Assembly: GCA_017520425.1 (NCBI GenBank)
Contig: JAFXFO010000012.1
Location: 1 to 42,651, forward strand
From: Lachnospiraceae bacterium
Lineage (GTDB): Bacteria > Bacillota > Clostridia > Lachnospirales > Lachnospiraceae
Direction of reading: 5' to 3'
DNA length: 42,651 bases
Shown here: one piece after another, positions 19,231-34,567 of the stretch
Numbering within the stretch: position 1 is the stretch's first letter
How the letters are laid out: the number at the start of each line of letters is the position of its first letter
Translations under genes and position numbers: made by a program
Notes under the pieces: generated by a model
Told to the model about the DNA's origin: nothing
The model's input: only the letters and a program-made list of their open reading frames with translations
Databases searched by the model: none

Positions 19231-21003
19231 CTAGCCTTCTATCACAGCTTTAATTCTTCTTACGCCTGCCGAGGATGCCTCTTCTTTTAAGATTCTGAAA
19301 GAGCCCAATTCTCCGGTATTTTGTGCATGAGGTCCACCACAGATTTCCTTAGAGTATCCGGGTATGGTATAAACTTTTACTACCTCCTGATATTTCCCAG
19401 CAAAAACTCCCATTGCTCCACTATTGTAAGCATCCTCCAAGGGCATTTCCTCCAACTGTACCTCCAGTTTTTTCTCAATAGCTTCATTTACAATCCGAGT
19501 CACCAGTTCCAGTTCTTCCTTGGTTACTTTGCGCGGAAAAGAAAAATCAAATCGCAGTCTCTCTGCCGTAATATTACTGCCACGTTGATATACTTCCTCA
19601 CCTAACACCTTACGAAGAGCACCATTTAGCAAATGTGTGGCTGTATGAAGTCTTGCAGTCTGCTCACTTGCGTCAGCCAGTCCTCCTGCAAACTTCCCTG
19701 CTGCACCCTGTCTTGACTTGTTCTGATGCTCCTCAAACTTCTTATGAAAGCCTTCCATATCCACACTCTTGCCCTGTTCCTGTGCCAATTCTGCACTAAA
19801 CTCTACCGGAAAACCATAAGTGTCATACAGCTTAAAGGTCAGCTCACCATTCAAAGTGCCGCCCTCCTCTACCTGATTCAAATACTTCTGTGCCTTCTTT
19901 AAGCCCTCATCCAAGGTCTTGGAGAATAAAGCATGTTCTTTTTGCAGCTGCTCCCGGATAAAGTCCTGGTTTTCCAAAAGCTCCGAATACACTTCCCCGT
20001 ATTGGCGAATCAGCACCTTAGAAAGCTCACACAAATAATTGCCATTAATACCTGCCTTCTTAAACAATCGGATAACTCTACGAATCAGTCGCCGTAAGAT
20101 ATATCCCTGCTCCGTGTTGGAAGGTAGGATTTTCATGGAATCACCCAGGATAAAAGTAATGGCTCTCATATGCTCACAAATAATGCGCTTTTCTCTCAGT
20201 GTCAGCTCTTTACCTTCACCAATCAGGATTTCCTCTACCAACTTCATAACAGGCTGAAAAAGCTCCGTATCATATACATTGGTCTTACCGTTAAAAATTG
20301 TCAGTACGCGTTCCAAGCCCATGCCCGTATCCACATTCTTTTGCTTCAACTCTGTGAAACTGCCGTCAGATTCTTTGTTAAACTGCATGAAAACATTATT
20401 CCAGATTTCCACATATTTTCCGCAATGACAAGCCGGACCGCAATCCGGTCCGCATTTAGGCTGTCCCATATCATAAAAGATTTCCGTATCCGGTCCGCAG
20501 GGTCCCGTCTGACCTGCGGGTCCCCACCAGTTTTCCTTCCTGCCATAACGGTATATCTGCTCATCTTTAAGTCCCTTGGACTTCCAGATATCCACAGCTT
20601 CTTCATCTGCCGGGACCAGTTCATCCCCTTCAAACACGGTTACTGCCAAACGTTCCACAGGGATATTCAGATGCTTTGTCAAAAACTCAAAGCTCATGGA
20701 TATGGACTCCTGCTTGAAGTAATCTCCCAAGGACCAGTTTCCCAGCATCTCAAAGAAGGTACAATGGGTATCATCACCCACCTCGTCAATATCCTCCGTA
20801 CGGATACATTTCTGCACATCCGTAAGCCTTTTTCCTGCCGGATGTCTTTCGCCCAACAAATAGGGCACTAAGGGATGCATGCCTGCTGTGGTAAATAACA
20901 CGGTAGGATCATTCTCCGGCAGAAGGGAGGCCGAGGCGATTTCCCTGTGTCCTCTTTCCTTAAAAAAGTTTACATACATGGTTCTTAATTCGTTTGCTGT
21001 CAT
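19231..21003 (-). CDS. Short alanyl-tRNA synthetase (catalytic plus editing domains)
   Basis: A 590-residue class II alanyl-tRNA synthetase lacking the roughly 280-residue C-terminal DHHA1/C-Ala part of a standard AlaS (about 870). Visible are [31 protein letters not shown] (motif 2), a Cys-rich insert ([12 protein letters not shown]), [19 protein letters not shown] (motif 3, about 226-234), and the editing domain zinc ligands HTATH (about 453-457) and CGGPH (about 555-559). Both activation and mischarged-tRNA editing residues appear intact. The ATG at 21003 has GGAGG 8 bases upstream; an upstream TTG falls at the leader terminator. It is preceded by a T-box leader. It may be a second AlaS paralogue, not the only one; that cannot be judged from this window. 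Confidence 0.9.
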
Positions 21004-21033
21004 TTCGTTTACCTCCATTTCTGATAATTCTCC

Positions 21034-21325
21034 CAAAAAAACATCGCCCTAAGTCGATATATATATCAACTTAGGGCGAACTTCTCTGTCCGTGTTACCA
21101 CCTAATTTCAGATTTCTCTGCACTCTGCCAATACGGGATTTCTCCGATATTGCTTCCTACGTTAACGGGGGAACTCCGTTGAAGCCTACTAAGAATCCTC
21201 TGTTCGGTCCACAGCTCAGAGGCTGCTTCGATATTCGTTCCATGAAGATTCGCACCCACCATCTTCTCTCTGTAATATCCCGGATATCTACTATTCCTCG
21301 TCAAAGCCTTTGTTCTTTTGGATTG
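21034..21325 (-). promoter_or_regulatory. T-box riboswitch (alanine) upstream of the AlaS-like gene
   Basis: This fills most of the 398-base gap. Read on the minus strand, it has a Stem I region with AGAGAG followed by GGTGGGTGCGA, then the conserved T-box AGGTGGTAACACGG (21103-21090), then a terminator: CGCCCTAAGT pairing with ACTTAGGGCG (21045-21079) and a run of seven Ts (21040-21034). The candidate specifier is GCA or GCC, both Ala codons, in GAAGCAGCC at about 21228-21221. Uncharged tRNA-Ala would pair with the T-box, favour the antiterminator and allow transcription of the synthetase and probably of the genes behind it. Confidence 0.92.
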
Positions 21326-21401: not shown

Positions 21402-23657
21402 TTACTCCACCGGTTCCAACACCACATCTTTTATCACATAATCTCCTGCAATGTTTCCAAAGTTATAGTTCAAATACCAGTCATAATTGGTATCCATCTC
21501 CATAGTAAACTGCATGGTATATTCCTGCAAATCCTCTGACACTTGGAACTCCTGCCAGAAACAGCCGGGATACTGACCGTTATCGTTACGGTTAATACCC
21601 AGATTCATAACCCCCGGTGTGGTACAGGAAACCTTAAAGGTAAGCTTATATGTCTGTCCTTGGTACAGAGTAATATTGTATGCCTGACACTGTATATCCC
21701 AAGGACTCTCCTTAGCATTTGGTACACGGACACAAAATGTATTCTCCTCTTTCTTTGCGGTAAATTCCGCATCACCGTAATACCCCCACCTCTCCACAGA
21801 CGCTACCATAGGCTTCGGCTCGCTACGGTCCTTACTGTAAAATGCATCCAGATATTTCTTCGCATATGCAGGGCGTTCATGGAAGAATTCACGCAAATGC
21901 TCCACATTATTGTCATAGCTATCCGCCGCCCACCCCAGTCCAAAGCGATAGAGGGTATCCTGCGTAACCGCCTTGTATGACTCTACATAATCATCCAATA
22001 GTGCATCCACTTTATCCGGTGCAAAGCAGGTATCTATAATTCGCAAATAATTTTCCTTAAACTGCTCTGCAAACTCCGGATTGGCCATCAGGTTATCCAA
22101 AATGGTCAGGAAATCATACACCGAACCGTCCGCACGATTGTTATTCAAGGAATCCCAGGCATATCCTGTATTTTCGCTATAATATAATCCACCGGCAAAA
22201 TCCATATCATAAAAGATAAAGCGCCATTTCGTATCTGCCTTTGGCAAAGACTCATCCACTGTCCTGGTATGCCAAATCTGCCAATTATTCACATAACCGT
22301 TTATCCAGTCCGCATTATTGATATAGGTCTCAACCATAACATAATCCATAAAGCTCTGCAGGTCCATGATTTCGCAGAAACGCTCATAATTCTCCGGCTG
22401 ACTCATATCCACTGCCTTCGCCCATGCACAGAACGCATTGAACTCCTCTAAATCACTGTCTTCTCCGCTTTCCACTTCTCCGTTTTTCAGGACGGCTACA
22501 TCATCCTTATCGATACCGTAGTGTGCCTCGATATAGTCATCATCGGGCTTTTCACGCAAAAGATAAAATCCCCAGAACTCGCCGTTTACAAACAGGATAC
22601 AGGGTTCCGAATCCATATAATCAGGCGCCAAATCCTTGGTTAAATCCTGAAAGAAGGCATCTCGGAAATGAAGGGTCTGGTTGTCATTTCCTCCGTTTCG
22701 TATGGTTACCTTTTTGTAGCTTTCAATAAGATTACCTTCCGCATCCGTCAATTCATTAAAAAAGGCATATTTCATTTTACTGGTTCCGTAATCTTTTCGT
22801 GCATACAGTCGAAAGCTCTTCTGCGCTGCCGCACGGGACCAATTGCCTGATAATCGGGTACCTACATTGGCACTATAAACCTCTTTTCCGTCTTCAAATA
22901 CCTGTATGGAAGTGGGAAATTCAGATTCCTTGCCATGTATATTGTAGTTGGTAGGATTATTGGCATCTCCGGGATCATACTCCTCATATTCATCGCTTTC
23001 CAGCCAATCATAATACCCTTTTCCCACCATATAAAATCCGGTATCCGGGTGAAACAGATTGTCCGCATGGGTGACCAGGGATATAACCTTCATCTCAGAA
23101 TAATAAGAATCCTTCTTTCCCACAAAATAACTATTGGTTACCACTTCGCTAAAGCTACCGTCCGCATTCCTTATGGCCGCCCGTACGATGATTCCCTTGT
23201 CCACAGGCTTATTGGGAGGATTGTAATCATTTAATGTAATATCCGTAATAGCACTCAAACGATTGGGTTCATTGGTGTTATTGTATATTCTGAGTGCCTT
23301 ATCATAAACCTTGGCCGTATCTGAATTTGTAGGGTCACTACCATCCAGTGTATAGTAGATTTCCTGCCCCTTTCCTGCACGGATAGTCAACTCAAACTCA
23401 TCCGTGTAAAAGCCGGCTTCTGCAGAAAATACAGGTAGCAGTACTTGCTCAACTTCCTCTGAATCCTCCTTTGTCTGAGGAACGGAAACCTCCATATCTT
23501 CAGGCTCTTTTGTCTCAGCTGAATCGACGTCCTGTGTATCCTCTACCACCTTGTCCACAGATTCTGTAGGTTCAGACTTCCCACATGCCGAAAAGCAAAC
23601 ACACACACAAATCATCCACAATAATATATAAACTCTATTTTTCCAATACTTTATCAT
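21402..23657 (-). CDS. CotH-kinase-family surface lipoprotein
   Basis: A 751-residue lipoprotein: signal peptide with lipobox FSAC (Cys25), acidic linker (about 28-72), chitobiase-type C-terminal-like Ig domain (about 75-180, with AGFYTDEFELTI and YYTLDGSDPTNS), CotH kinase domain (about 190-600) and a C-terminal carbohydrate-binding-like beta domain (about 640-751, YNITLYQGQTYKLTFKVS). CotH hallmarks are RNGGNDNQTLHFRDAF, FYLLREKPDDDYIEAHYG and the metal-binding FIFYDMDFAGG. Spore CotH phosphorylates coat proteins; surface homologues occur with adhesion and cellulosome functions. The ATG has AAAGGAG 10 bases upstream. It is only 28 bases after the receiver-GGDEF gene, so it may be an output of that signalling operon. 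Confidence 0.85.
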   Translation of the reverse strand: MIKYWKNRVYILLWMICVCVCFSACGKSEPTESVDKVVEDTQDVDSAETKEPEDMEVSVPQTKEDSEEVEQVLLPVFSAEAGFYTDEFELTIRAGKGQEIYYTLDGSDPTNSDTAKVYDKALRIYNNTNEPNRLSAITDITLNDYNPPNKPVDKGIIVRAAIRNADGSFSEVVTNSYFVGKKDSYYSEMKVISLVTHADNLFHPDTGFYMVGKGYYDWLESDEYEEYDPGDANNPTNYNIHGKESEFPTSIQVFEDGKEVYSANVGTRLSGNWSRAAAQKSFRLYARKDYGTSKMKYAFFNELTDAEGNLIESYKKVTIRNGGNDNQTLHFRDAFFQDLTKDLAPDYMDSEPCILFVNGEFWGFYLLREKPDDDYIEAHYGIDKDDVAVLKNGEVESGEDSDLEEFNAFCAWAKAVDMSQPENYERFCEIMDLQSFMDYVMVETYINNADWINGYVNNWQIWHTRTVDESLPKADTKWRFIFYDMDFAGGLYYSENTGYAWDSLNNNRADGSVYDFLTILDNLMANPEFAEQFKENYLRIIDTCFAPDKVDALLDDYVESYKAVTQDTLYRFGLGWAADSYDNNVEHLREFFHERPAYAKKYLDAFYSKDRSEPKPMVASVERWGYYGDAEFTAKKEENTFCVRVPNAKESPWDIQCQAYNITLYQGQTYKLTFKVSCTTPGVMNLGINRNDNGQYPGCFWQEFQVSEDLQEYTMQFTMEMDTNYDWYLNYNFGNIAGDYVIKDVVLEPVE

Positions 23658-23685
23658 AAAAGCACGGCTCCTTTTGTAAGCAATC

Positions 23686-25035
23686 CTATTTTCCCTTTGA
23701 TGGTCTCATGGTTTCAATATCAAATGTAATCCGGCAATCCTCAAGTACTCCATTGTTAATTTCATGGAATCTGCCAATCACTCTTCCGGCAACCTCCCTG
23801 CCGTCTGCCAAATCAGCATCCATAATGATTAGTACATATTGGGTGCTGCTGTATTGGGTACCCGTATCCACATTTCGTAACGAGGAAATCACTGATTGGA
23901 TAAACACATCCATTGCCTTTTCCTGCACCTCTTCCGGCGCTTCTATGGTGAATAGAACAATCTGTACCTTTCTTCTGTTTCGTATCACACAACGCATGGC
24001 AAAATCATACATTTTCTTAAACTCATTATACTCCACATGGAAAGCACCCTTGTTCTCAGCCATATCCTGCATCATCATGTTATGTATGCGTTCCAATGTG
24101 GCATTAGTATTAATCTGACTGATTTTGTCGGCAGATTCGTCAATATTTTCATCATAGATACGGTATGCATTCTTTCCGCCATTCTTCACCAGATATAATG
24201 TTTTGTCCGCCCTGTCGTAAAGCTCCTCAAAGGATTCCTCTCCCAATGTTATCTTGGCTCCGATAGAAACGGAAACAATTCCTCCATATCCCATGGCACC
24301 CATCTTGTCCGAAAATATTCTGATAATATCCGTAGCTTTTTGGGCAACAATCTCACGGTCCGTCAAATCTGTATAGAAGGTTACAAATTCATCCCCTCCC
24401 AAACGGCAGAGGATATCATCCTTTCTGGCAAACATTTTCAGGACCTCTGCAAAGGTCTTTAATACTTCATCACCAACCATATGACCATAGGTATCATTCA
24501 TTTTCTTGAAATTGTCCAAATCAATCATAAACAATGTACCGCTACGGTCATCATTGATTAATTCTCCCAGCTTTTTCTCCAAAAAAGGACGGTTATTCAA
24601 ACCTGTCAATGCATCTGTCAGAGATTTTTGCGTATTCTGCTCCAGCAGTGTTTCCAAATCCTTACGTTTCTCATGAGCATCCAGTATTTTTCCCACACGG
24701 CTTCTCATAACATCCGGAACAAACGGCTTTGTAATAAAGTCATCTGCACCAAAGCTCAGACACTCAGCTTCTGTCATAGGATTGGAATCTGCTGTCAGAA
24801 AAACAATTGGAATACTCTTCCATTCATCCTTTTCTTTTATTCTTTTTGCAGCCTCTTTTCCATCCATTTCCGGCATCTCAATGTCCATCAATATCAAATC
24901 CGGCAATTCCTCTTCCAAATATTCCAGAGCCTCCGTGCCGGAATATGCCATTGCCAATTCGTATTCTTGCACCAAGGCATGCTTTGCCAGAATACAATTC
25001 ATATTATCGTCATCAACTATCAGTATTTTCTTCAT
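23686..25035 (-). CDS. Receiver-GGDEF diguanylate cyclase response regulator
   Basis: A 449-residue cytosolic protein. The receiver (1-120) has the acidic VDDDN pocket, phospho-acceptor D51 in LILMDIEMPEMDG and the Lys in ITKPF. The GGDEF domain (about 140-295) has LTDALTGLNNR, IDLDNFKKMND and an intact GGDEF (213-217); the RxxD inhibitory I-site R204-D207 is correctly spaced, so c-di-GMP feedback is expected. Residues about 300-445 look like a second, degenerate GGDEF-like domain: LRNVDTGTQYSSTQYVLI stands where a GGDEF hairpin would be, without the catalytic acids. It lies 24 bases past the hybrid kinase, which is the likely phosphodonor. The start has AAGGGG about 10 bases upstream. Confidence 0.93.
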   Translation of the reverse strand: MKKILIVDDDNMNCILAKHALVQEYELAMAYSGTEALEYLEEELPDLILMDIEMPEMDGKEAAKRIKEKDEWKSIPIVFLTADSNPMTEAECLSFGADDFITKPFVPDVMRSRVGKILDAHEKRKDLETLLEQNTQKSLTDALTGLNNRPFLEKKLGELINDDRSGTLFMIDLDNFKKMNDTYGHMVGDEVLKTFAEVLKMFARKDDILCRLGGDEFVTFYTDLTDREIVAQKATDIIRIFSDKMGAMGYGGIVSVSIGAKITLGEESFEELYDRADKTLYLVKNGGKNAYRIYDENIDESADKISQINTNATLERIHNMMMQDMAENKGAFHVEYNEFKKMYDFAMRCVIRNRRKVQIVLFTIEAPEEVQEKAMDVFIQSVISSLRNVDTGTQYSSTQYVLIIMDADLADGREVAGRVIGRFHEINNGVLEDCRITFDIETMRPSKGK

Positions 25036-25059
25036 GTTCCGAATTCCCCTTATAATAAT

Positions 25060-27570
25060 CTATTTGCAATATTCTTTTGCCAGCTCTACCACCTGGTCAT
25101 ACAGCGTCATTACTTCCCCATGATGTTCCAGGATATAGCTGATATTTTCTTTCGTATCCTTATCCTCTCTAATACGTTTCCCGGCCATTTCCAGGCTCAG
25201 ACACTGCTCTGACAGCTGACTGCTGCCTATATTTAGTGCATTTGACTTCAGGGAATGAATCTGTATGGTATAACCGTTCCAATCCCCTTCATCGCTCATG
25301 CGTTGCAAGTCTTTTTTCTTCTTTTCAGCTTGTCCGCAAAACATTCCCAGGATTTCCCGATAAATCATTTCATTATTGTCACAATACTTCATCCCCACCT
25401 TAAAATCAATCAGGGGCTCCGCATCTTCTGTTTGCACTTCCTGAACCTGCGGTGCTTTCTCTTTGGGAACTTCCTGTTCCAAAGCAACCAGCTTTTCTTT
25501 GGGTAAATACTCCGCCAGTTTCGCCTCTAATACTCCGCCGTCAATGGGCTTACTGATATAATCCGCAAAGCCTGCCGCCAGATACATTTCTCTTGCACCC
25601 GAAATGGCATTGGCTGTCAATGCGATAATCGCCACATCCTTATTGAGGTTATTATCCAACTGTTTGGACCGTTTTAATGTTTCCATACCATCCAGTCCCG
25701 GCATCATATGGTCTAACAGGATTACATCATATTCATTCTTACACATTAAATCCAGTGCATCAAAACCATTTTCACAGGCAGTAATCTGTATCTGTGTCTT
25801 TTTCAAAAGGCTTTGAACCACCGTAAGATTAATCTGATTATCATCCACTACCAGAACATTGGCTGTGGGTGCTGTAAATGCAGGCACATATTTATGTGAA
25901 CGGTCTGCTTCCCGATTATCATACTTTTCAAAATCACCGATTGGTTCATCAGAAATAATCTTTTGCGCCAAATTTATGGTGAATACACTACCTTCCCCAT
26001 AAATGCTGGCAACCTCCATGCCACCACCCATCATACTTACCAGATTATGAGTAATAGCCAAGCCTAAGCCGGTTCCTTCTATGTTGCGGTTTGTTTCCAA
26101 ATCCAAACGTTGGAATTCTTTAAATAATTTGTGAATATCTTCTTCATGTATACCGATTCCGGTATCCTCAATGGACCAGATTAGTGCTGCCTCTCCCTTA
26201 TCCGGACTAGTCTTGCCGCTAACCTTTAGCCTTACCTCGCCTTCCTTGGTATACTTTACCGCATTATTCAACAGATTAATCAATACCTGCCTGATTCGCA
26301 CATCATCACCAAACAAAACACTAGGCAACTTATCATCCACATTTACCCGGAAACGCAAACCCTTCTGTTTTGCTTTCAACTCAATCATAATCGCCACATC
26401 ATTCAGCAATTCACCCAGCTTATATTCATGATTGACAATCTCAATCTTACCCGACTCAATCTTGGAGAAATCCAAAATATCATTAATGATAGACAACAGG
26501 TTTTGACTGGCAGTTTCAATATTATTAGCATATTCCAGAATGGTTTCATCCTGGCTTTCCCTTAAAATCATTTCATTCATTCCCAAAACTGCATTAATGG
26601 GCGTTCTGATTTCATGGGACATATTTGCCAGAAAATCACTTTTTGCATGATTCGCCTGCTCCGCGATTCTCTTTGCCTGACGCAAAGCATCACTTTCCTT
26701 TACCTTTTTCTCTGCTCCCAGCAAATAAATGGCTACTATTACCAACAATACCCATAACAATCCAAAGCACCATAATACCAACGGAATAATTAGGGCAATA
26801 TTGCTTGCCACCAAAGAAAGTGGGACATAACCCAATATGTAAAGACTGGTATAATCTGTTTCCGATACAAAGAGAACCTTGTCTTCCTCTGCCCTGCTAA
26901 TGATTGCAGCCGCCGAATTCACATTCATCTTTTTACGAATCGCTTCCATTGCTTTTGCATTTTTGCTCTCTGCGAAATAAGAAACCTCCAGCTTAGTCTC
27001 GTTCATCTGCAAAACCATATTGCCGTCTATATCTACAATCCCGCAAACGCCTTGTCCCTCATAACAGTTGATATCTATTTTCTCTGCCAGAACATGCCCT
27101 TCATACAGCTTGTACAAAACAAATTTTACATTATCACCACTGTAAACAGGCACCGAAAACAAAATAGTGGAATCCTTTCCGCAGGAAACAGTTGCATTTC
27201 CGTGGATGGCATCAATAATCCCCCTATATTCTCCCAAATCAAGTGCTTCTCCAAAGGCCGGACGACCATCAATATACAGGACACCGTAGGAAACACCTTC
27301 CTCCTGTGCAAGAAAGTTCTCCATTTCACCGCTCTGCATATCTACAAAGGTGGTCACTTCACTCAGTACCTGCAACTCACTTCTGAAATAATTGTTTACA
27401 ACCTCCGCAATCATTTCACTTTCCTTGGCTATATGCTCCTCCGTCTGTTTGTCTATAATGCCCCGCATCTTTAACCACATGGATACACACACTACCATCA
27501 GAACCAAAAAACTTAATAAAATACCAAAAAAAGGAGTCTTAATATCCTTAAAATGTATTCTTTTACTCAT
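25060..27570 (-). CDS. Hybrid histidine kinase (sensor-HisKA-HATPase-REC-Hpt)
   Basis: An 836-residue membrane phosphorelay protein. Transmembrane helices are at about 14-33 and 258-284, bracketing a roughly 220-residue extracellular sensor. Then come HisKA ([10 protein letters not shown]319), HATPase with N box LLNNAVKYT, G boxes DTGIGI and GTGLGL, a receiver (VVDDNQIN, D620 in VILLDHMMPGLDG) and an Hpt domain with IHSLKSNA (H772). The expected relay runs H319 to D620 to H772 and then to a separate receiver, most simply the next gene's receiver-GGDEF. Its ATG overlaps the stop of the second BMP gene by 8 bases, so binding protein and kinase are translationally coupled. Confidence 0.94.
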   Translation of the reverse strand: MSKRIHFKDIKTPFFGILLSFLVLMVVCVSMWLKMRGIIDKQTEEHIAKESEMIAEVVNNYFRSELQVLSEVTTFVDMQSGEMENFLAQEEGVSYGVLYIDGRPAFGEALDLGEYRGIIDAIHGNATVSCGKDSTILFSVPVYSGDNVKFVLYKLYEGHVLAEKIDINCYEGQGVCGIVDIDGNMVLQMNETKLEVSYFAESKNAKAMEAIRKKMNVNSAAAIISRAEEDKVLFVSETDYTSLYILGYVPLSLVASNIALIIPLVLWCFGLLWVLLVIVAIYLLGAEKKVKESDALRQAKRIAEQANHAKSDFLANMSHEIRTPINAVLGMNEMILRESQDETILEYANNIETASQNLLSIINDILDFSKIESGKIEIVNHEYKLGELLNDVAIMIELKAKQKGLRFRVNVDDKLPSVLFGDDVRIRQVLINLLNNAVKYTKEGEVRLKVSGKTSPDKGEAALIWSIEDTGIGIHEEDIHKLFKEFQRLDLETNRNIEGTGLGLAITHNLVSMMGGGMEVASIYGEGSVFTINLAQKIISDEPIGDFEKYDNREADRSHKYVPAFTAPTANVLVVDDNQINLTVVQSLLKKTQIQITACENGFDALDLMCKNEYDVILLDHMMPGLDGMETLKRSKQLDNNLNKDVAIIALTANAISGAREMYLAAGFADYISKPIDGGVLEAKLAEYLPKEKLVALEQEVPKEKAPQVQEVQTEDAEPLIDFKVGMKYCDNNEMIYREILGMFCGQAEKKKKDLQRMSDEGDWNGYTIQIHSLKSNALNIGSSQLSEQCLSLEMAGKRIREDKDTKENISYILEHHGEVMTLYDQVVELAKEYCK

Positions 27571-28663
27571 AGATTACCACCCCGTCAACATACCAATCCA
27601 TTCTTTCCAATAACAACTCATCGCTTATGGATTCACCCTCATTACAGCGAAGCTGACCTGAATTATCGTAGATTACCCCGGAAAAAACATCCTTACCGGC
27701 ATACAATTCGTTTTTCAAAGATTTGAGATATGTGCAAATATCCTCTTCCACCAAAGGAGAACAGTCTGCCAGTGCCACGACTTCTGTATTGATTCCGAAC
27801 CAATGTCTCTTAACGGAATTGGCCTTGCCCTGCATATACTCTCTCATAATCTGAAAATACAATTCATTCCAATTCCAAACAGCTGCCGTCAGATACTTTT
27901 CAGACAATCCTTCTGCAGCTTTATTGTAACCTATGGAATAAATACCTGCTTTATCTGCTGTCTGTACCACATAATTCTGGTTCTGATGACAGGTGATAAT
28001 ATCCACTCCCGCATCATCAATCAGCTTGTTCGTTGCTTCCGCCTCTATCTTTTCATCATCCCAGGTATTGGTCCAAACCACATAGACCTCTGCATCCGGA
28101 TTTGCCTTTTTAACCCCCAATGTAAATGCATTGATACCACGATTAACTTCGCTATTGGGCATGGCTGCCACGTAGCCTACCTTATTGCTTTCTGTTTTCA
28201 TACCTGCTACAATTCCGGCAAGATATCTGGCCTGATACATCCTGCCGAAATAGGATGTCATATTGTCCGCATAATACTCCGCTGAGATACCGTAAAAAGC
28301 AATCTTCGGATATGAATCAATCACATCCCTGGCTTCTTCCGGATAAGCGTAACTGGACAGTATAATCATCCCCGCGCCTTCCGTAGCCAGTTCCTTAATG
28401 GCTTCTGCACATTTTCCCGTACCTTCCTGCACATTCTCTTTCACAAGCAATTCGGCATCCAGCTGCTCACAGGCATATCTTACTCCTTGATAATGGGCAC
28501 CGTTCCAGCCACTTTCCTCCATGGAACCGGTTATAATCAAACCCACTTTGGGTCTGGCATCCCTTCTATTACCAATAAACAGAATAACCGCAAGGATAAT
28601 TAACAGAATCATCACCGCAGATATAAGTAACACTTTTTGTCGCATCTTGCCGCTACTTTTCAT
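27563..28663 (-). CDS. BMP-type binding protein, membrane-anchored (copy 2)
   Basis: A 366-residue protein of the BMP/PnrA-like periplasmic binding family, whose characterised members bind nucleosides. One N-terminal membrane helix (about 10-30) with no lipobox Cys suggests an uncleaved anchor. Family-like segments are KVGLIITGSMEESGWNGAHYQG, YFGRMYQARYLAGIVAGM and SEVNRGINAFTLGVKKANPDAEVYVVWT. It shares these clearly with the preceding gene, so the two are paralogues from an old duplication. It overlaps that gene by 11 bases and the hybrid kinase by 8. With no permease or ATPase nearby, a sensory role feeding the kinase is favoured. GGGAG lies 6 bases before the ATG. Confidence 0.88.
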   Translation of the reverse strand: MKSSGKMRQKVLLISAVMILLIILAVILFIGNRRDARPKVGLIITGSMEESGWNGAHYQGVRYACEQLDAELLVKENVQEGTGKCAEAIKELATEGAGMIILSSYAYPEEARDVIDSYPKIAFYGISAEYYADNMTSYFGRMYQARYLAGIVAGMKTESNKVGYVAAMPNSEVNRGINAFTLGVKKANPDAEVYVVWTNTWDDEKIEAEATNKLIDDAGVDIITCHQNQNYVVQTADKAGIYSIGYNKAAEGLSEKYLTAAVWNWNELYFQIMREYMQGKANSVKRHWFGINTEVVALADCSPLVEEDICTYLKSLKNELYAGKDVFSGVIYDNSGQLRCNEGESISDELLLERMDWYVDGVVIYE

Positions 28664-29744
28664 TTATAACTCCCTCTACATACCAATCAAATTCATTGAG
28701 CATCACATTGTCTGTTAAACACTCCCCTGCCTTGACACGTTCTCTTCCCAGATTGTCAATGATAGGACCATAAAAAACATCATACGTGCCGCTGCTCAAT
28801 CGTTCCATTTCTTTATTTACCACCTCATGAGTTCCGGCATTTACATTATCCGTGAACGGTGCAAGGGATACGATTCCTGTTTCCACACCTTCCCAATAAT
28901 GATTGCCTTCGATTTTTCCCTGCAGGCACTTCAATATGTTGGGCGTGTAAAAATCAGCCCAGTCCCATACCGCAGCCGTCAGATAGGTCTCCGGATAGTT
29001 TTTACTGTTATCCACATTATAGCCGATGGACATTACCCCTTCTTTTTCCGCAATCTCCAAAGGTCTCACCGAGTCCGTATGCATTGTCAGCACATCAATA
29101 TTGTGCTTCTCTAAAAGGGTATTGGTAGCTTCTTCTGCAGCCCGGTCGTCGTTCCAGGAATCGGTCCAACTCACGTAAACCTTAGCTTCCTTGTTTACAC
29201 TTCTCACTCCCAATGTAAATGCGTTAATCCCTCTATTCACCTCTGAAATAGGAAATGCCGCCACATAACCGATTTCATTGGTCCTGGTCTGCAATCCGGC
29301 CACAATCCCCGACAAATAACGAATCTGATACATTCTGCCGAAATAAGTGGTCAGATTCTTTCCCTCACCCACTCCGGTTGCATGAAAGAAATAAATCTCC
29401 GGATATTTTTTTGACATCTGATTAATACATTCCCCAAACTCAAAGGAATTTGCAATAATTATTTTACAACCATCTTTTACAAACCGGTCAACAATACCTT
29501 CAATAGTATCCACTGTTACCCCTTCTTCATAAAACATGGTTAAATTCAATTCTTTTGCTGTTTTCTCTAAACCCTCATAGTGAGACTGGCTCCAACTGTG
29601 GTCATCCACCATACCATTCAAAACCACCCCCACTTTGGTAGTCTCCTTGGTTACTTCTGTATCTGTTTCATAAATATTTATAAAGAAAATACCCGCAATA
29701 ATAGCCGCAATAATAATTCCGGCTATAATATAGATTTTTTTCAT
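28653..29744 (-). CDS. BMP-type binding protein, membrane-anchored (copy 1)
   Basis: A 363-residue BMP/PnrA-like binding protein, first gene of the signalling operon. After MKKIYIIAGI comes one membrane helix (about 3-22) without a lipobox Cys. Conserved parts are KVGVVLNGMVDDHSWSQSHYEG, YFGRMYQIRYLSGIVAGLQT and PISEVNRGINAFTLGVRSVN. The ATG at 29744 has GGAGAGAGG about 6 bases upstream; a GTG at 29765 lies before that site. The ligand-contact region differs from copy 2 (GVMSIGYNVDNS against GIYSIGYNKAAE), so ligand preference may differ. The ligand could be a nucleoside, but this is family inference only. Confidence 0.87.
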   Translation of the reverse strand: MKKIYIIAGIIIAAIIAGIFFINIYETDTEVTKETTKVGVVLNGMVDDHSWSQSHYEGLEKTAKELNLTMFYEEGVTVDTIEGIVDRFVKDGCKIIIANSFEFGECINQMSKKYPEIYFFHATGVGEGKNLTTYFGRMYQIRYLSGIVAGLQTRTNEIGYVAAFPISEVNRGINAFTLGVRSVNKEAKVYVSWTDSWNDDRAAEEATNTLLEKHNIDVLTMHTDSVRPLEIAEKEGVMSIGYNVDNSKNYPETYLTAAVWDWADFYTPNILKCLQGKIEGNHYWEGVETGIVSLAPFTDNVNAGTHEVVNKEMERLSSGTYDVFYGPIIDNLGRERVKAGECLTDNVMLNEFDWYVEGVINEK

Positions 29745-29780
29745 ACAAAACCTCTCTCCTTCCACTCATGAACCTTCTTA

Positions 29781-29790
29781 ATTATACCAA
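29781..29790 (-). promoter_or_regulatory. Extended -10 promoter of the BMP/kinase operon
   Basis: TTGGTATAAT on the minus strand (29790-29781) gives TG-N-TATAAT, an extended -10, placed about 30 bases before the ribosome binding site. No good -35 is present. The 176-base gap to the divergent HD-GYP gene also has a plus-strand TATAAT at 29871-29876 with a weak -35. I saw no c-di-GMP riboswitch here. Confidence 0.55.
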
Positions 29791-29920
29791 ACATTTCCTA
29801 CTCCTACCAGTTTTTTTACTGTATAACACAAAAAAGTAACAAAATACTACAATATTATCACAAGTTGAGTTATAATATAAATAGTTGTGTGATTATCTCG
29901 TTACAGGAGGGGTACCTAAG

Positions 29921-31828
29921 ATGAGCGCTTTACAGAAAAGAACCTATATCTTAACACTTATCGGAATAATAGTAGGCCTTATCGGAATGATGATTTATAA
30001 TCATTCTGCATTCTATATGAATGTAACGACAAAAATGCAGAACATGGGAATGGGCAATCTGAGCATTATCGCCAATACACTGGAGCGGGACTTGTCCAAA
30101 AATATCAGTTCTCTGCAGGTAACCGCAATCAACTTGGAATATATGCTGTCAGAGGATGCTTCTTCGGACGATATTGAAGACTTATTAATCCATCAATCCA
30201 AGGAATACGCCAAACAGGTCAATCCTAATTTTGCAGGAATATATGGTATACTTAACGGAGAATATATGCATGGAGGCGGTTGGACTCCGGACGAAGGCTA
30301 CGACCCTCGGCAAAGGGACTGGTATATCGCTGCAAAAACTGCCCAAGGAAAACCGGTGATTGTCTCCCCCTATTTTGATGCGATTACACACGCACCTGTA
30401 ATTTCCATAAGCCAAATGCTTTCCGATGGAGACAGTGTTATTTCCATAGATATCAGCACCAACGAGCTTCAACAGATTTTAGAAGAAACCTGCCCTAAGG
30501 ACTTAGGATATATATTTCTTGTAGACAAGGATGGTCTGGTTCTTTCCCACATGAACGAAGAAGAGAACGGTAAGAACTATTTGACCGCTCCCGAAACCAA
30601 GGAAATTATAGAAAGTATTCTGTTTGAAGGAAATACCTATTTTGAGTCTGTTGCAGACGGTGTGAACAGTCAGATTCTGGCATCCAAGGTTATGTCTGAC
30701 TGGCACATAGTAATGGTGGTAGACAAAAAAACCATGTTCCGGGGAGTAAATCGTTCCCTCTTCCTAAATTTACTATTGTGTAGCGCCATATCCGCATTAA
30801 TTGTATTTTTCTACATCTATACCTTCCGCAGAATACGTCACTCTGTGGTGCTTGAAAGAGAAAGTAACCAAAAGATTGAAGAAATCAACATGAATATGAT
30901 TCATGCCTTGGTACGTACCATAGATGCCAAGGACCGATATACCAACGGTCACTCCATCCGTGTAGCTGAATATGCCATGAGAATTGCACAGGAATTGGGC
31001 AAGAGTCCGGAGGAACAGCAATTAATCTACTATGCAGGCTTGTTGCATGATGTGGGCAAAATACGTGTTCCTGAAGATATCATTAATAAGCCCGGCAAGC
31101 TTACAAACGAAGAATATGAATTAATCAAAATCCACCCGGTTACCGGCTATCACATTATCAAAGACATCTATGATGACAAAACCATCGCACTGGGTGTGAA
31201 ATATCATCATGAACGTTACGACGGCAAAGGCTATCCCAGTGGCCTGACCGAGAAGAATATACCTGAAATTGCAAGAATCTTAGGTGTAGCAGATACCTAT
31301 GACGCCATGGCAAGTAACCGAAGCTATCGTAGGGCCTTGTCCCAGGAAAAGGTACGGGAAGAAATCCAAAAGGGAAAAGGAACACAATTCGACCCACAAA
31401 TTGCCGATATTATGCTTCGCCTGATTGATGCCGACAAAGAATACGACTTGAAAGAAAAAGCTTCCTTGGATAAAACCATTTTGGTAATAGATGATGATGC
31501 CATGAATGTGAAGATGACAGAACTCATCATGAAGGACGAACCCATGTACAAAATTATTAGTGCTTCCAGTGGCAAGGATGCCTTAGAATTGCTGGAAACC
31601 ACTTCTGTGGATTTAATCCTGTTAGACGTGGAAATGCCTGATATGGATGGATTTGAAACCCTGTCACATATCCGCAAGAAATATCATATGCCCATTGCAT
31701 TTATGACCGGAAACAAAGATATTGAAACCATACAAAAGGCTACGGAACTCGGAGTAAATGATTATATCAATAAACCATTTATACCGCTTGCTTTAAAAGA
31801 AACCATTCATAGTATTTTCAGTGCCTGA
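29921..31828 (+). CDS. Cache-HD-GYP-receiver c-di-GMP phosphodiesterase
   Basis: A 635-residue membrane protein: helix (about 8-26), extracellular dCache-type sensor (about 35-270; GGWTPDEGYDPRQRDWYIAA is the Cache signature), second helix (about 280-301), HD-GYP domain (about 322-505) and C-terminal receiver (about 517-635). The HD pair is in LLHDVGKIRVP (H376, D377) and the GYP motif in HHERYDGKGYPSG (437-439), so hydrolysis of c-di-GMP is expected. The receiver has VIDDDAMN, D569 and the Lys in INKPF. A receiver placed after HD-GYP is unusual; most are at the N-terminus. The ATG at 29921 has AGGAGGGG 8 bases upstream. It is divergent from the cyclase operon, opposing its activity. Confidence 0.93.
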   Translation: MSALQKRTYILTLIGIIVGLIGMMIYNHSAFYMNVTTKMQNMGMGNLSIIANTLERDLSKNISSLQVTAINLEYMLSEDASSDDIEDLLIHQSKEYAKQVNPNFAGIYGILNGEYMHGGGWTPDEGYDPRQRDWYIAAKTAQGKPVIVSPYFDAITHAPVISISQMLSDGDSVISIDISTNELQQILEETCPKDLGYIFLVDKDGLVLSHMNEEENGKNYLTAPETKEIIESILFEGNTYFESVADGVNSQILASKVMSDWHIVMVVDKKTMFRGVNRSLFLNLLLCSAISALIVFFYIYTFRRIRHSVVLERESNQKIEEINMNMIHALVRTIDAKDRYTNGHSIRVAEYAMRIAQELGKSPEEQQLIYYAGLLHDVGKIRVPEDIINKPGKLTNEEYELIKIHPVTGYHIIKDIYDDKTIALGVKYHHERYDGKGYPSGLTEKNIPEIARILGVADTYDAMASNRSYRRALSQEKVREEIQKGKGTQFDPQIADIMLRLIDADKEYDLKEKASLDKTILVIDDDAMNVKMTELIMKDEPMYKIISASSGKDALELLETTSVDLILLDVEMPDMDGFETLSHIRKKYHMPIAFMTGNKDIETIQKATELGVNDYINKPFIPLALKETIHSIFSA

Positions 31829-31834
31829 TATCAA

Positions 31835-31866
31835 AAAAATTGTCGCCTCTCAGGGCGACAATTTTT
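31835..31866. terminator. Bidirectional terminator between convergent genes
   Basis: A 13-bp stem, AAAAATTGTCGCC (31835-31847) with GGCGACAATTTTT (31854-31866) and a 6-nt loop, lies between the HD-GYP stop and the double-receiver stop and serves both strands. Confidence 0.9.
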
Positions 31867-32626
31867 ATTTCAAGTGTTTCCTTATTGCTTCTGCTAACAT
31901 TTTAGCATTTGCGGGTTTTAGCAGATATCCTGCCGGATGTAACTCCAATACTGCACGGATATGCTTCCCGTCATTCAATCCGGTCAAAAAGATAACCGGA
32001 ATATCCTTTGCTTCCTCCACTTCACGAATCATCTGCAAGGTCATCCTTCCATCCCATTCCGGCATGTCATAATCCAGGAATATCAAATCCGGCAGTCTCT
32101 GACCTAATAACGTTAATGCCTTCGCACCGGATGTAGCCATCTTGATATCGTAATCTTTTTTCAGTAATTCATTCAATATTCTCAACTGCATAGGGCTGTC
32201 ATCTACCAGTAAAATACATTTTCTTTTACTGTCAACACCCTTAACAATCTTACTGTTTACCTCATAATCAATATGAAGTAAAGTATATATCTCCTCTAAC
32301 AGTTTCTCATTATCAACCGGTGTCACCACTTCCTGGAAGGTTCCTTGTTCCAGTACCATGCTGAATCTGTCTTTCCCTTCCTCAGCACCCACGCATAAGA
32401 TAGGTATGTCAGCGTATGTAGCTTTGACCCGGTTAAGAAAAGTAATCATCTCACGGTCCAATTCTACCAGGGAAACCACCATAATATGCGGTTGATTTAA
32501 GTTCAACATATCGTTAATCAGTTTTTCATCATCCACACATACCTGCACACTAAAATACTCTGACAAAAAACTGTTCAGCTCTTTAAAAAACGCATTGATT
32601 TTGCCAATAAGAAATACCTTTTTCAT
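31865..32626 (-). CDS. Double-receiver response regulator without effector domain
   Basis: A 253-residue protein of two tandem receiver domains. The first (1-120) has lost the acidic pocket: the phospho-acceptor position in PHIMVVSLVELD is Ser or Val. It is a pseudo-receiver. The second (about 135-253) is complete: LLVDDSPMQ, D185 in LIFLDYDMPEWDG, FLTG and the Lys in LLKPA. With no DNA-binding or enzymatic domain, it may act as a phosphate sink, a relay intermediate or a protein-binding switch, as CheY/Spo0F-like proteins do. AGGAGAG precedes the ATG. It follows the second hybrid kinase by 63 bases and is its likely partner. Confidence 0.88.
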   Translation of the reverse strand: MKKVFLIGKINAFFKELNSFLSEYFSVQVCVDDEKLINDMLNLNQPHIMVVSLVELDREMITFLNRVKATYADIPILCVGAEEGKDRFSMVLEQGTFQEVVTPVDNEKLLEEIYTLLHIDYEVNSKIVKGVDSKRKCILLVDDSPMQLRILNELLKKDYDIKMATSGAKALTLLGQRLPDLIFLDYDMPEWDGRMTLQMIREVEEAKDIPVIFLTGLNDGKHIRAVLELHPAGYLLKPANAKMLAEAIRKHLK

Positions 32627-32689: not shown

Positions 32690-34567
32690 TTAATCCACAA
32701 TCAACTCTTTTGGCAAATATTTTCGTAAAATTTGTTCTAATTTGTGGTATATAATCGGTTTCGATAAGAAATCATCAAATCCCTCATCCACATACTTCTG
32801 TCGTTCTGACAAAATGGCATTGGCTGTCAGCATAATAACGGGTACTCCCGGACACATTCCCATCCTATTAATCTCATTCTTTGTCTCAATACCATCCATC
32901 TCCGGCATCATATGATCCATGAAAATAATATCCACTGTCTGCTCTCGCAGGATTTGCAGACATTCTGCTCCGCTGACCGCTTCCAATACCTGCATCTGTG
33001 TTGCTTTTAACAGACGCTTGAATACCTTACGGTTCATATCCACATCATCCACCACCAGGACTTTTGCGTTTGGTGCAACCAGGCTTGATTGATTTTCTGT
33101 TTCTTCCGAGTGGTTTGATTTATGGCTAAACTCTCCCAGAGGCTCCCTGTTCACAATCTTCTGCCTTAAATCAAAAGAAAACTCGCTTCCCTTTTCATAC
33201 TCACTCTCAATCTGAATCTCACTGTCCATAAGCTTGAGAAGCTGCTGAACTATATTCATACCCAGACCGGTACCCTCAATATTTCTGTTTTTATCCAAAT
33301 CAATTCGCTTAAACTCCTCATAGAGTTTTCCGATGTCCTCGGTCTTGATACCTATGCCGGTATCTTTCACCAAGCAGTGTAAAATCGCCGTATCTTCCAC
33401 TATATCACAATTGATTTTCAACACCACCTGACCAACCTTGGTGTATTTTACAGCATTGGACAACAGATTCATTAATACCTGTTTGATTCTCTTATCATCA
33501 CCATGCAATTCACTTGGAATATGAGGGTCGATATCAAATTTAAGCATTAAATTCTTTTCATTCGCCCGGACATCAAACATATGATACAAATCACTCAAAA
33601 GCTGGTTCATCTTATAATCCACGGGCACCAATTCCATCATACCGGATTCCAGCTTTGATGAATCCAGTATTTCATTCACAATATTCAACAAAACTACGGA
33701 CGAATCCTTTACGTCCTTAGCATAATTACGGATGGGCTCTTCTTCACTCTCTCGCAGAATCATCTCATTCATACCCATGATGGCGTTGATGGGAGTACGG
33801 ATTTCATGAGACATTCTTGCCAAAAACTTAGACTTGGCCTGATTTGCGTTCTCCGCTTCTATCTTGGCCTTTTCCAATTCATCTGTCAGCTTCGCCTTTT
33901 CCAGACTGCCGCTTACTATTCTCAAAATGCTGTTACAAACAAATACGGACGAAAAATATATAAGACATCTTGGTAACACAAAAAACAACAAAAGTGTATA
34001 ACCCGGATTACTATTTACAGTTGTAAGTAAGAAATGGTTGTCTGCCACATAATCTATCATTCTGTCCGAAGTTAGCAATACCATATTTGCATCACACAGT
34101 CCCCAATAATAACCACCATATACAATCACACAGGTACTGACTACGGTCAGCGCATAAATATACCGCATAAGCCTTTTGGAGGAATACAAGGTACCATACA
34201 GAAAAGGCAATAGGGACAATAATACCACATGATAGGTTATGGTAACTCCTATAATCGTGTAAACCACAATGATACTTGTAATAATATAGTATTTGACCCT
34301 TTCGTCGGACAAAGAAACCTTTCTCGACATTATGTATATAATGATATAAATAACTAATGAAGGCACAAAGCCATTGGCCATAACAATTTTATTGACAACA
34401 AATATCTCCAAAATATTTAAGATAAAAGATATCACATAACATATCATGGTAACACGAAAGCACTTCATTACATACTTATTCGCAACAGATTCCCTGTTCT
34501 CTAAGTACACTGAAATGTCGTCGTTTTGTGGGATATCCGTTGCATTCAGTCTGCTTCTCCGATTCAT
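32690..34567 (-). CDS. Hybrid histidine kinase with polytopic membrane sensor
   Basis: A 625-residue kinase. The N-terminal 215 residues hold about five or six membrane helices (for example 36-58, 67-80, 93-120, 133-152, 190-212), with little extracellular domain, so it may sense a membrane or lipophilic signal. A coiled linker leads to HisKA ([10 protein letters not shown]254), HATPase ([21 protein letters not shown]) and a receiver (VVDDVDMN, D551 in [13 protein letters not shown]). It has no Hpt domain, unlike the BMP-linked kinase, so another Hpt would be needed to pass phosphate onward. AGGAGGT is 6 bases before the ATG. Its HisKA/HATPase core resembles the other kinase. Confidence 0.92.

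Follow-up and report, generated by a model that had tools for sequence, protein, structure and literature searches.

LuxP-LuxQ is a pairing of a binding protein with a kinase. Here we describe an operon of a Lachnospiraceae bacterium (assembly GCA_017520425.1, contig JAFXFO010000012.1) in which two genes for BMP-family binding proteins, here named BMP1 and BMP2, are followed by a hybrid histidine kinase and a REC-GGDEF diguanylate cyclase, with an HD-GYP phosphodiesterase encoded divergently. The whole stretch that was analysed, 42,651 nucleotides (nt) long, is called the window, and coordinates refer to it. We think that this operon probably encodes a LuxPQ-like, binding-protein-dependent phosphorelay by which extracellular purine bases would act on cyclic dimeric GMP (c-di-GMP).

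XylFII-LytS is likewise a binding-protein/kinase pair (PMC10384115, PMC9602780), and a survey of 49 model bacteria lists 22 binding-protein families, 13 of which have a known action on receptors (PMC9602780). The window differs from LuxP-LuxQ and XylFII-LytS in using two paralogous binding proteins of the BMP/AtzT family and in having c-di-GMP as candidate output. Like the window, the CuaD-CuaS-CuaR system of Ruminiclostridium cellulolyticum has a dedicated signalling binding protein beside a kinase in a member of the Clostridia, but there the binding protein, CuaD, is a lipoprotein that binds cellobiose, and the system acts through a DNA-binding regulator (PMC10384115). Hk1-Rrp1 of Borrelia burgdorferi shares with the window an operon that joins a kinase of the type HK core-REC-Hpt to a REC-GGDEF protein, with an input resembling substrate-binding proteins; in that system, as described, the SBP_3 domains lie within the Hk1 kinase itself, whereas the window has two separate BMPs, a divergent HD-GYP gene and a double-Cache kinase (PMC4013479). 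In Vibrio cholerae, NspS-MbaA is an example of a periplasmic binding protein that sets c-di-GMP, as proposed for the window, but the account given of it has a GGDEF-EAL receptor controlled directly, a polyamine ligand and no kinase or phosphorelay (PMC8967002). Purine sensing able to change c-di-GMP is described for the dCache_1PU receptors, in which the Cache domain itself binds the purine (PMC11245519); in the window the BMPs would do so. AtzT (6pi5) is regarded as an uptake protein (PMC6834077), unlike the window BMPs, which carry a membrane anchor and are encoded with a kinase. Kinases triggered by binding proteins, binding proteins that set c-di-GMP, and REC-Hpt kinases joined to REC-GGDEF proteins with binding-protein-like sensors are known already; our literature search found no publication that connects BMP proteins with a kinase or with c-di-GMP, and an earlier mention is possible.

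The operon and the BMP-kinase linkage

BMP1 (28653..29765, minus strand) encodes a PnrA/AtzT-like binding protein with a called GTG start, and alignment of relatives favours the ATG at 29744 as the likely start. BMP2 (27563..28663, minus strand; PF02608 E 1.8e-57) is 38% identical to BMP1, and the PF02608 matches of the two reach 195.1 and 181.5 bits against a curated cut-off of 24.1. The hybrid histidine kinase (25060..27570, minus strand) is arranged as transmembrane segment, double Cache (about residues 31-259), transmembrane segment, HisKA, HATPase, REC and Hpt. It is followed by the REC-GGDEF response regulator (23686..25035, minus strand), a diguanylate cyclase with an I-site, and by the operon's last gene, a CotH-kinase domain protein (21402..23657, minus strand). 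From BMP1 to CotH the spacings are -11, -8, +24 and +28 nt, and Pfam finds Bmp, Bmp, HisKA-HATPase-REC-Hpt, REC-GGDEF, and CotH with CBM_4_9 across the five proteins. On the plus strand, the dCache-HD-GYP-REC phosphodiesterase (29885..31828) has a called TTG start, and an AGGAGG-like site precedes the likely start ATG at 29921; divergent promoters would lie between the likely starts of BMP1 and of this gene (intergenic region 29745..29920). The kinase, the cyclase and the phosphodiesterase all have intact active-site motifs (SHEIRTP, LLDHMMP, Hpt IHSLKS, LMDIEMP, RxxD-GGDEF, HDVGK, HHERYDGKGYP). The first-pass annotation, made from the letters of the window, had described this tight operon and the divergent phosphodiesterase, and all genes were found in place with the domains it gave them; it had left unnamed the extracytoplasmic double-Cache domain of the kinase. 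A BMP gene beside a kinase with such a domain, the mark of a three-component system, is thus present in the window.

Two separate searches of 299 genomes of the family were made, one with BMP1 and one with a profile built on the sensor part of the kinase. The profile matched 17 places in 16 genomes at E <= 2.8e-77, the next match reaching only 5e-22. All 17 strong matches adjoin a BMP gene (14 loci, G233, the window, and G168, where linkage was judged from BMP and sensor coordinates), in a test that is partly circular, as 16 of the 17 were already known via BMP and were used to build the profile. What the sensor search added is that no strong match lacks a BMP and that the single new match has one. 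A class-wide sensor search of 391 genomes gave one match at E <= 1e-30, in the window's own genome.

A scan of further genomes found 356 BMP1 relatives, of which the best 80 were kept as a larger sample; all 80 come from metagenome-assembled genomes, many of them from herbivore guts. Reading frames overlap there in 71 of 71 BMP1/BMP2 pairs and in 69 of 70 BMP2/kinase pairs, most commonly by 11, 14 or 8 nt, although starts were taken as the first in-frame start codons and the overlaps are therefore possibly overstated. A triad was called in 73 of these loci, six of which (L117, L131, L156, L160, L165, L168) have a single BMP before the kinase. The other seven (L093, L105, L109, L129, L134, L137, L153), where no triad was callable by script, were left out of neighbour counts: six lie at a contig end and L134 has overlapping gene calls. 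Eight further loci lack a neighbour on one side, which leaves 65 triads in the adjacent-gene counts. In L119, BMP1 is split between two frames, by a broken gene or a sequencing error, while the BMP2, kinase and HD-GYP genes that follow it in a run are intact; this locus was excluded from the pocket counts.

As the first-pass annotation had noted, no ATP-binding cassette (ABC) permease or ATPase lies beside the BMPs within the window. A transporter role was considered by searching the host genome (2.9 Mb, 42 contigs, 90.4% complete) for BMP and BPD_transp_2 (PF02653) genes. No other BMP and no BMP transporter were found in it, and its sole PF02653 permease pair belongs to a Liv operon with its own binding protein. 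For comparison, other BMP genes of the relatives were chosen at first by gene size, and the next gene was then typed by Pfam in 23 of them, the tandem locus L054 being left out: it is an ABC ATPase in 13 cases, a chemoreceptor (MCP with sCache_3_3) in nine, and an APH match in one.

Compared with these ABC-linked proteins, the kinase-linked BMPs are attached differently. Both window BMPs have a hydrophobic N-terminal anchor and, by eye, no lipobox-like site, and the predicted structure of BMP1 begins with a helix at residues 2-37. A lipobox-like site occurs in 4 of 80 BMP1 and in none of 73 BMP2, versus 11 of 13 ABC-linked BMPs. By these features the kinase-linked BMPs are membrane-anchored proteins and not lipoproteins, in agreement with the first annotation, and in the tree they form a separate branch (support 100/99) that sets them apart, at the level of sequence, from the transporter-type BMPs. 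The 17 BMP-linked sensor matches, the overlapping genes and the failure to find a BMP permease in the host genome support the earlier proposal that BMP proteins are the sensory partner of the hybrid kinase.

An aromatic/Arg ligand motif of the dCache_1PU/dCache_1AA type, in a loose form that we wrote ourselves, was found in 0 of 63 kinase sensor rows, and a Trp anywhere in the outer domain in 21 of 63. The 50 structures retrieved for the kinase sensor do not include LuxQ, an absence that excludes nothing.

The predicted ligand pocket

In AtzT, guanine is sandwiched by Tyr45 and Trp194 and contacted by the side chains of Ser97, Glu165, Asn218 and Asn220; the dissociation constants (KD) are 0.11 uM for guanine and 2.5 uM for adenine, 2-hydroxyatrazine is a further ligand, and the Brucella BMP structure 3s99 was modelled with adenine (PMC6834077). 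Aligned to AtzT, BMP1 has a predicted pocket of W58, S107, E175, W204, H229 and D231, which is the 3s99 set, and BMP2 one of W53, S104, E172, W201, H226 and N228; the AtzT/3s99-type pattern (aromatic sandwich, Ser, Glu, His/Asn, Asp/Asn) is present in both. Over the 80-locus set and the window, the last position is Asp in 75 of 80 BMP1, the other 5 having Asn, and it is always Asn in BMP2 (73 of 73). Loci from the 299-genome search, partly the same as those of the 80-locus set, show Asp in 11 of 13 BMP1 and Asn in 12 of 14 BMP2.

The ABC-linked BMPs have Ser, Glu, Trp and His in 13 of 13 cases each and Asp in 12 of 13, and because the pocket is common to them it argues for a ligand class and not for signalling. 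By alignment, the departure from their pocket is the Asn of BMP2, the Asp of BMP1 being also that of nearly all other BMPs checked. Kinase-linked BMPs have Trp (76/80 BMP1, 72/73 BMP2) at a position where ABC-linked ones have Tyr (12/13), and the position of AtzT Phe98, a backbone contact, is Tyr in BMP2 and Ala in 10 of 80 BMP1. In the fold comparison, the base binders AtzT and 3s99 score 8 Z units above the nucleoside binders, the other BMP structures having nucleoside or riboflavin ligands. Pocket and fold point to purine bases as the predicted ligand, rather than nucleosides. The nucleoside ligand suggested at first is in this way altered, and a nucleoside-type PnrA pocket was dropped as first choice, with 3s99 and AtzT leading by sequence and by fold.

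Cyclic di-GMP enzymes and competing explanations

Genes for c-di-GMP enzymes were called with profiles made from the window's GGDEF and HD-GYP domains and with an EAL search. As a control, we used 40 other hybrid kinases from eight triad genomes, in which 56 matches included 9 triad kinases; 40 of the remaining 47 were taken, leaving out four near a triad (G200:C26:94556, G200:C26:84007, G268:C9:162347, G000:C5:32693) and three more (G096:C30:25545, G017:C16:28026, G268:C43:2986). A c-di-GMP gene is immediately adjacent to 40 of 65 triads (22 of 31 after clustering of BMP1 at 75% identity) versus 7 of 39 control kinases, an excess with an odds ratio of about 7 to 11. For loci with at least 4 kb on both sides, the counts within 5 kb are 36 of 49 triads and 13 of 38 control kinases. 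At the 24 other-BMP loci an adjacent c-di-GMP gene was found in 0 of 22 cases and one within 5 kb in 2 of 19. The host genome has 20 GGDEF, 9 EAL and 8 HD-GYP matches, so a random neighbour would seldom be a c-di-GMP gene. Conservation of the BMP-kinase-GGDEF neighbourhood, which had been put forward as a check, is thus seen for the BMP-kinase pair, with a c-di-GMP gene beside it in the majority of triads.

Individual loci show the association in different forms. In L094, L095, L097 and L098, REC-HD-GYP and REC-GGDEF genes lie downstream of the kinase in one run, and L166 (12175-17703) encodes a natural fusion of 1842 amino acids (aa) in which a BMP kinase is continued by another kinase, receivers, an Hpt match slightly below the Pfam cut-off, and HD-GYP. 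The closest relative among the best 80, L093 (81%), has kept the divergent HD-GYP gene (62%) on the same side of BMP1 as in the window, and relatives of the REC-GGDEF protein spanning at least 75% of its length occur in 23 of 80 loci. The C-terminal part of this protein (residues about 296-449) has no Pfam match, yet its relatives align over residues 1-445.

Two observations concern the sensors of c-di-GMP enzymes. The dCache of the HD-GYP protein has a Y-x4-R-x-W-Y stretch (residues 139-147) that resembles the amino-acid dCache motif, and the same loose pattern occurs in 6 of 9 similar-sized HD-GYP proteins of related loci; judging from this motif, the phosphodiesterase may sense a signal other than that of the BMPs. 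Among the weaker matches of the kinase sensor profile, 20 of 58 were examined (L173-L192), mostly open frames of 620-780 aa, and all 20 are GGDEF or GGDEF-EAL proteins; next to L175 a regulator of the GntR family is encoded divergently, and a divergent gene of similar size lies beside several of the others.

In the proposed mechanism, BMP1 and BMP2 would stand on the outer face of the membrane, held by their N-terminal helices, and would bind purine bases, adenine-like in BMP1 and a different purine in BMP2. Loaded or empty, they would dock on the double-Cache domain and switch the kinase, and phosphate would pass from HisKA to REC to Hpt and then to stand-alone receivers, namely that of the co-transcribed REC-GGDEF protein, which would make c-di-GMP, and that of the divergent HD-GYP protein, which would destroy it. 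The net effect would be a c-di-GMP level set by extracellular purines. We infer the contact between BMP and kinase, the ligand, the phosphotransfer and the sign of the response. If this is correct, a family of binding proteins whose known role is the uptake of nucleosides and bases gains a signalling role, and extracellular purines are tied to c-di-GMP in gut Clostridia that are uncultured and about whose sensory inputs little is known; the anchor in place of a lipobox, together with the frame overlap with a hybrid kinase, would be a recognisable mark for finding further cases. A bolder extension, possible but somewhat doubtful in our view, is a purine comparator: BMP1, with the Asp of adenine-bound 3s99, and BMP2, with the Asn of guanine-bound AtzT, would read different bases on one kinase, and the ratio or sum of extracellular purines would set c-di-GMP in gut Lachnospiraceae via the opposed cyclase and phosphodiesterase receivers, BMPs being a general purine-sensing front end of the family recruited at least twice. 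For the proposed relay, the two paralogues with their nearly fixed Asp/Asn difference yield a sharp, testable ligand prediction.

Several facts weigh against the phosphorelay we propose. A strong sensor match occurs in only 16 of 299 family genomes, and the same-genus genome G022 has none and only a distant BMP, so that even members of one genus differ in having the triad. The conserved pocket, shared as it is with ABC-linked BMPs, is no proof of the ligand, and the host assembly, being incomplete, could be missing a BMP transporter. The loci are related to each other, which makes p-values optimistic. Finally, 25 of 65 triads have no immediately adjacent c-di-GMP gene, meaning that a c-di-GMP output is not universal, and the excess over the control kinases is not absolute, as some of these have such a neighbour as well. 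Of the earlier claim that the phosphorelay sets c-di-GMP, what holds is that c-di-GMP enzymes are frequent partners, as in the L166 fusion, though not beside every triad.

These last counts also favour an explanation in which the kinase does pass on the BMP signal but acts mainly on an output other than c-di-GMP, other receivers being phosphorylated and c-di-GMP genes being common neighbours of many kinases in these bacteria. In line with it, the next gene in L117, L131, L160 and L168 resembles a receiver protein encoded near the operon (31865..32626, minus strand), and in L117 it is only a receiver by Pfam. We consider this unlikely given the odds ratio against kinases of the same genomes, the kinase-HD-GYP fusion in L166, and the position of the window's REC-GGDEF gene, 24 nt downstream of the kinase in an operon with no other kinase. 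The same circuit could alternatively respond to another ligand, such as a nucleoside, a modified base, a sugar or a plant-derived aromatic. AtzT binds 2-hydroxyatrazine besides guanine (PMC6834077), other BMP structures hold nucleosides or riboflavin, nearly every Bmp member covered by a survey is predicted there to have a sugar ligand (PMC9602780), which also counts against our own proposal, and the Ala at the Phe98 position in some BMP1 is consistent with such variation. The mapped contacts of BMP1 and BMP2, however, are all the AtzT or 3s99 residue except at the Phe98 backbone contact (Tyr in BMP2), and the base binders lead by fold, leaving a different ligand a rather modest chance. That the BMPs simply serve a purine ABC transporter encoded elsewhere, with the proximity of the kinase regulatory or accidental, seems very improbable: PF02608 is described as a family of ABC transporter binding proteins, and more than half of the other BMP genes typed in relatives adjoin an ABC ATPase gene and have the same pocket, but against this stand the single Liv-type permease pair and the lack of any other BMP in the genome, the anchors in place of lipoboxes, the reading frames that overlap the kinase gene (69 of 70 loci), and the separate tree branch.

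Flanking genes and other BMP pairings

The CotH protein, with CBM_4_9 and Fn3-associated domains, is likely a lipoprotein, as first annotated, under a relaxed lipobox only (FSAC), the two strict patterns being unmatched. The comparison does not support it as a conserved surface output: a CotH match occurs in only 1 of the best 80 loci (29% identical) and in only 1 of the 14 loci from the 299-genome search (L045, about 6 kb off), while the contig of L093 ends after BMP1 and carries no information on CotH. By spacing CotH is operonic, but by this distribution it is outside the conserved core, and it was rejected as a conserved output.

On the other side, the receiver protein at 31865..32626 has a C-terminal receiver by Pfam and an N-terminal half that is receiver-like by eye, and its relatives come after the kinase in single-BMP loci, including the four named above. 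Next to it, a second hybrid kinase (32690..34567, minus strand) has a membrane N-terminus and HisKA-HATPase-REC, and in L094 the gene immediately upstream of BMP1 is a 59% relative. As their relatives lie beside triads elsewhere, both proteins are possible additional relay members.

Between CotH and an alanyl-tRNA synthetase-like gene lie a promoter-like site (21359-21331) and a T-box leader (21313-21069, coordinates in the order given), the only element found by an Rfam scan of the window at gathering thresholds. The synthetase-like gene behind this leader (19231-21313, minus strand) has only 601 codons and presumably is without the usual C-terminal part.

One triad (L159) is on a contig that bears the label Fibrobacter sp. 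(UBA1765), a name from outside the Clostridia, which may reflect transfer, mislabelling or a binning error. The nine BMP-chemoreceptor loci (L050, L052, L193, L194, L196, L199, L201, L204, L211), assigned by elimination from the Pfam tally with two seen individually, have a lipoprotein-type BMP with the MCP gene within about 30 nt. Their BMPs group together (98/96) inside a branch that also holds ABC-linked BMPs. From this arrangement, it looks like BMP-dependent, perhaps purine, chemotaxis in these nine relatives, and BMP-kinase and BMP-chemoreceptor pairs together suggest that BMPs were taken into signalling at least twice in the family. In a separate group of about 650 aa (L056:1800-3746, L057:7895-9838, L058:8602-10560, L059:8090-10087), a BMP half follows an N-terminal half of about 300 residues; neither a signal nor an anchor is obvious, and these proteins may be cytoplasmic BMP regulators. 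The tandem locus L054 (7627-11659) contains three BMP genes of the other type in a row.

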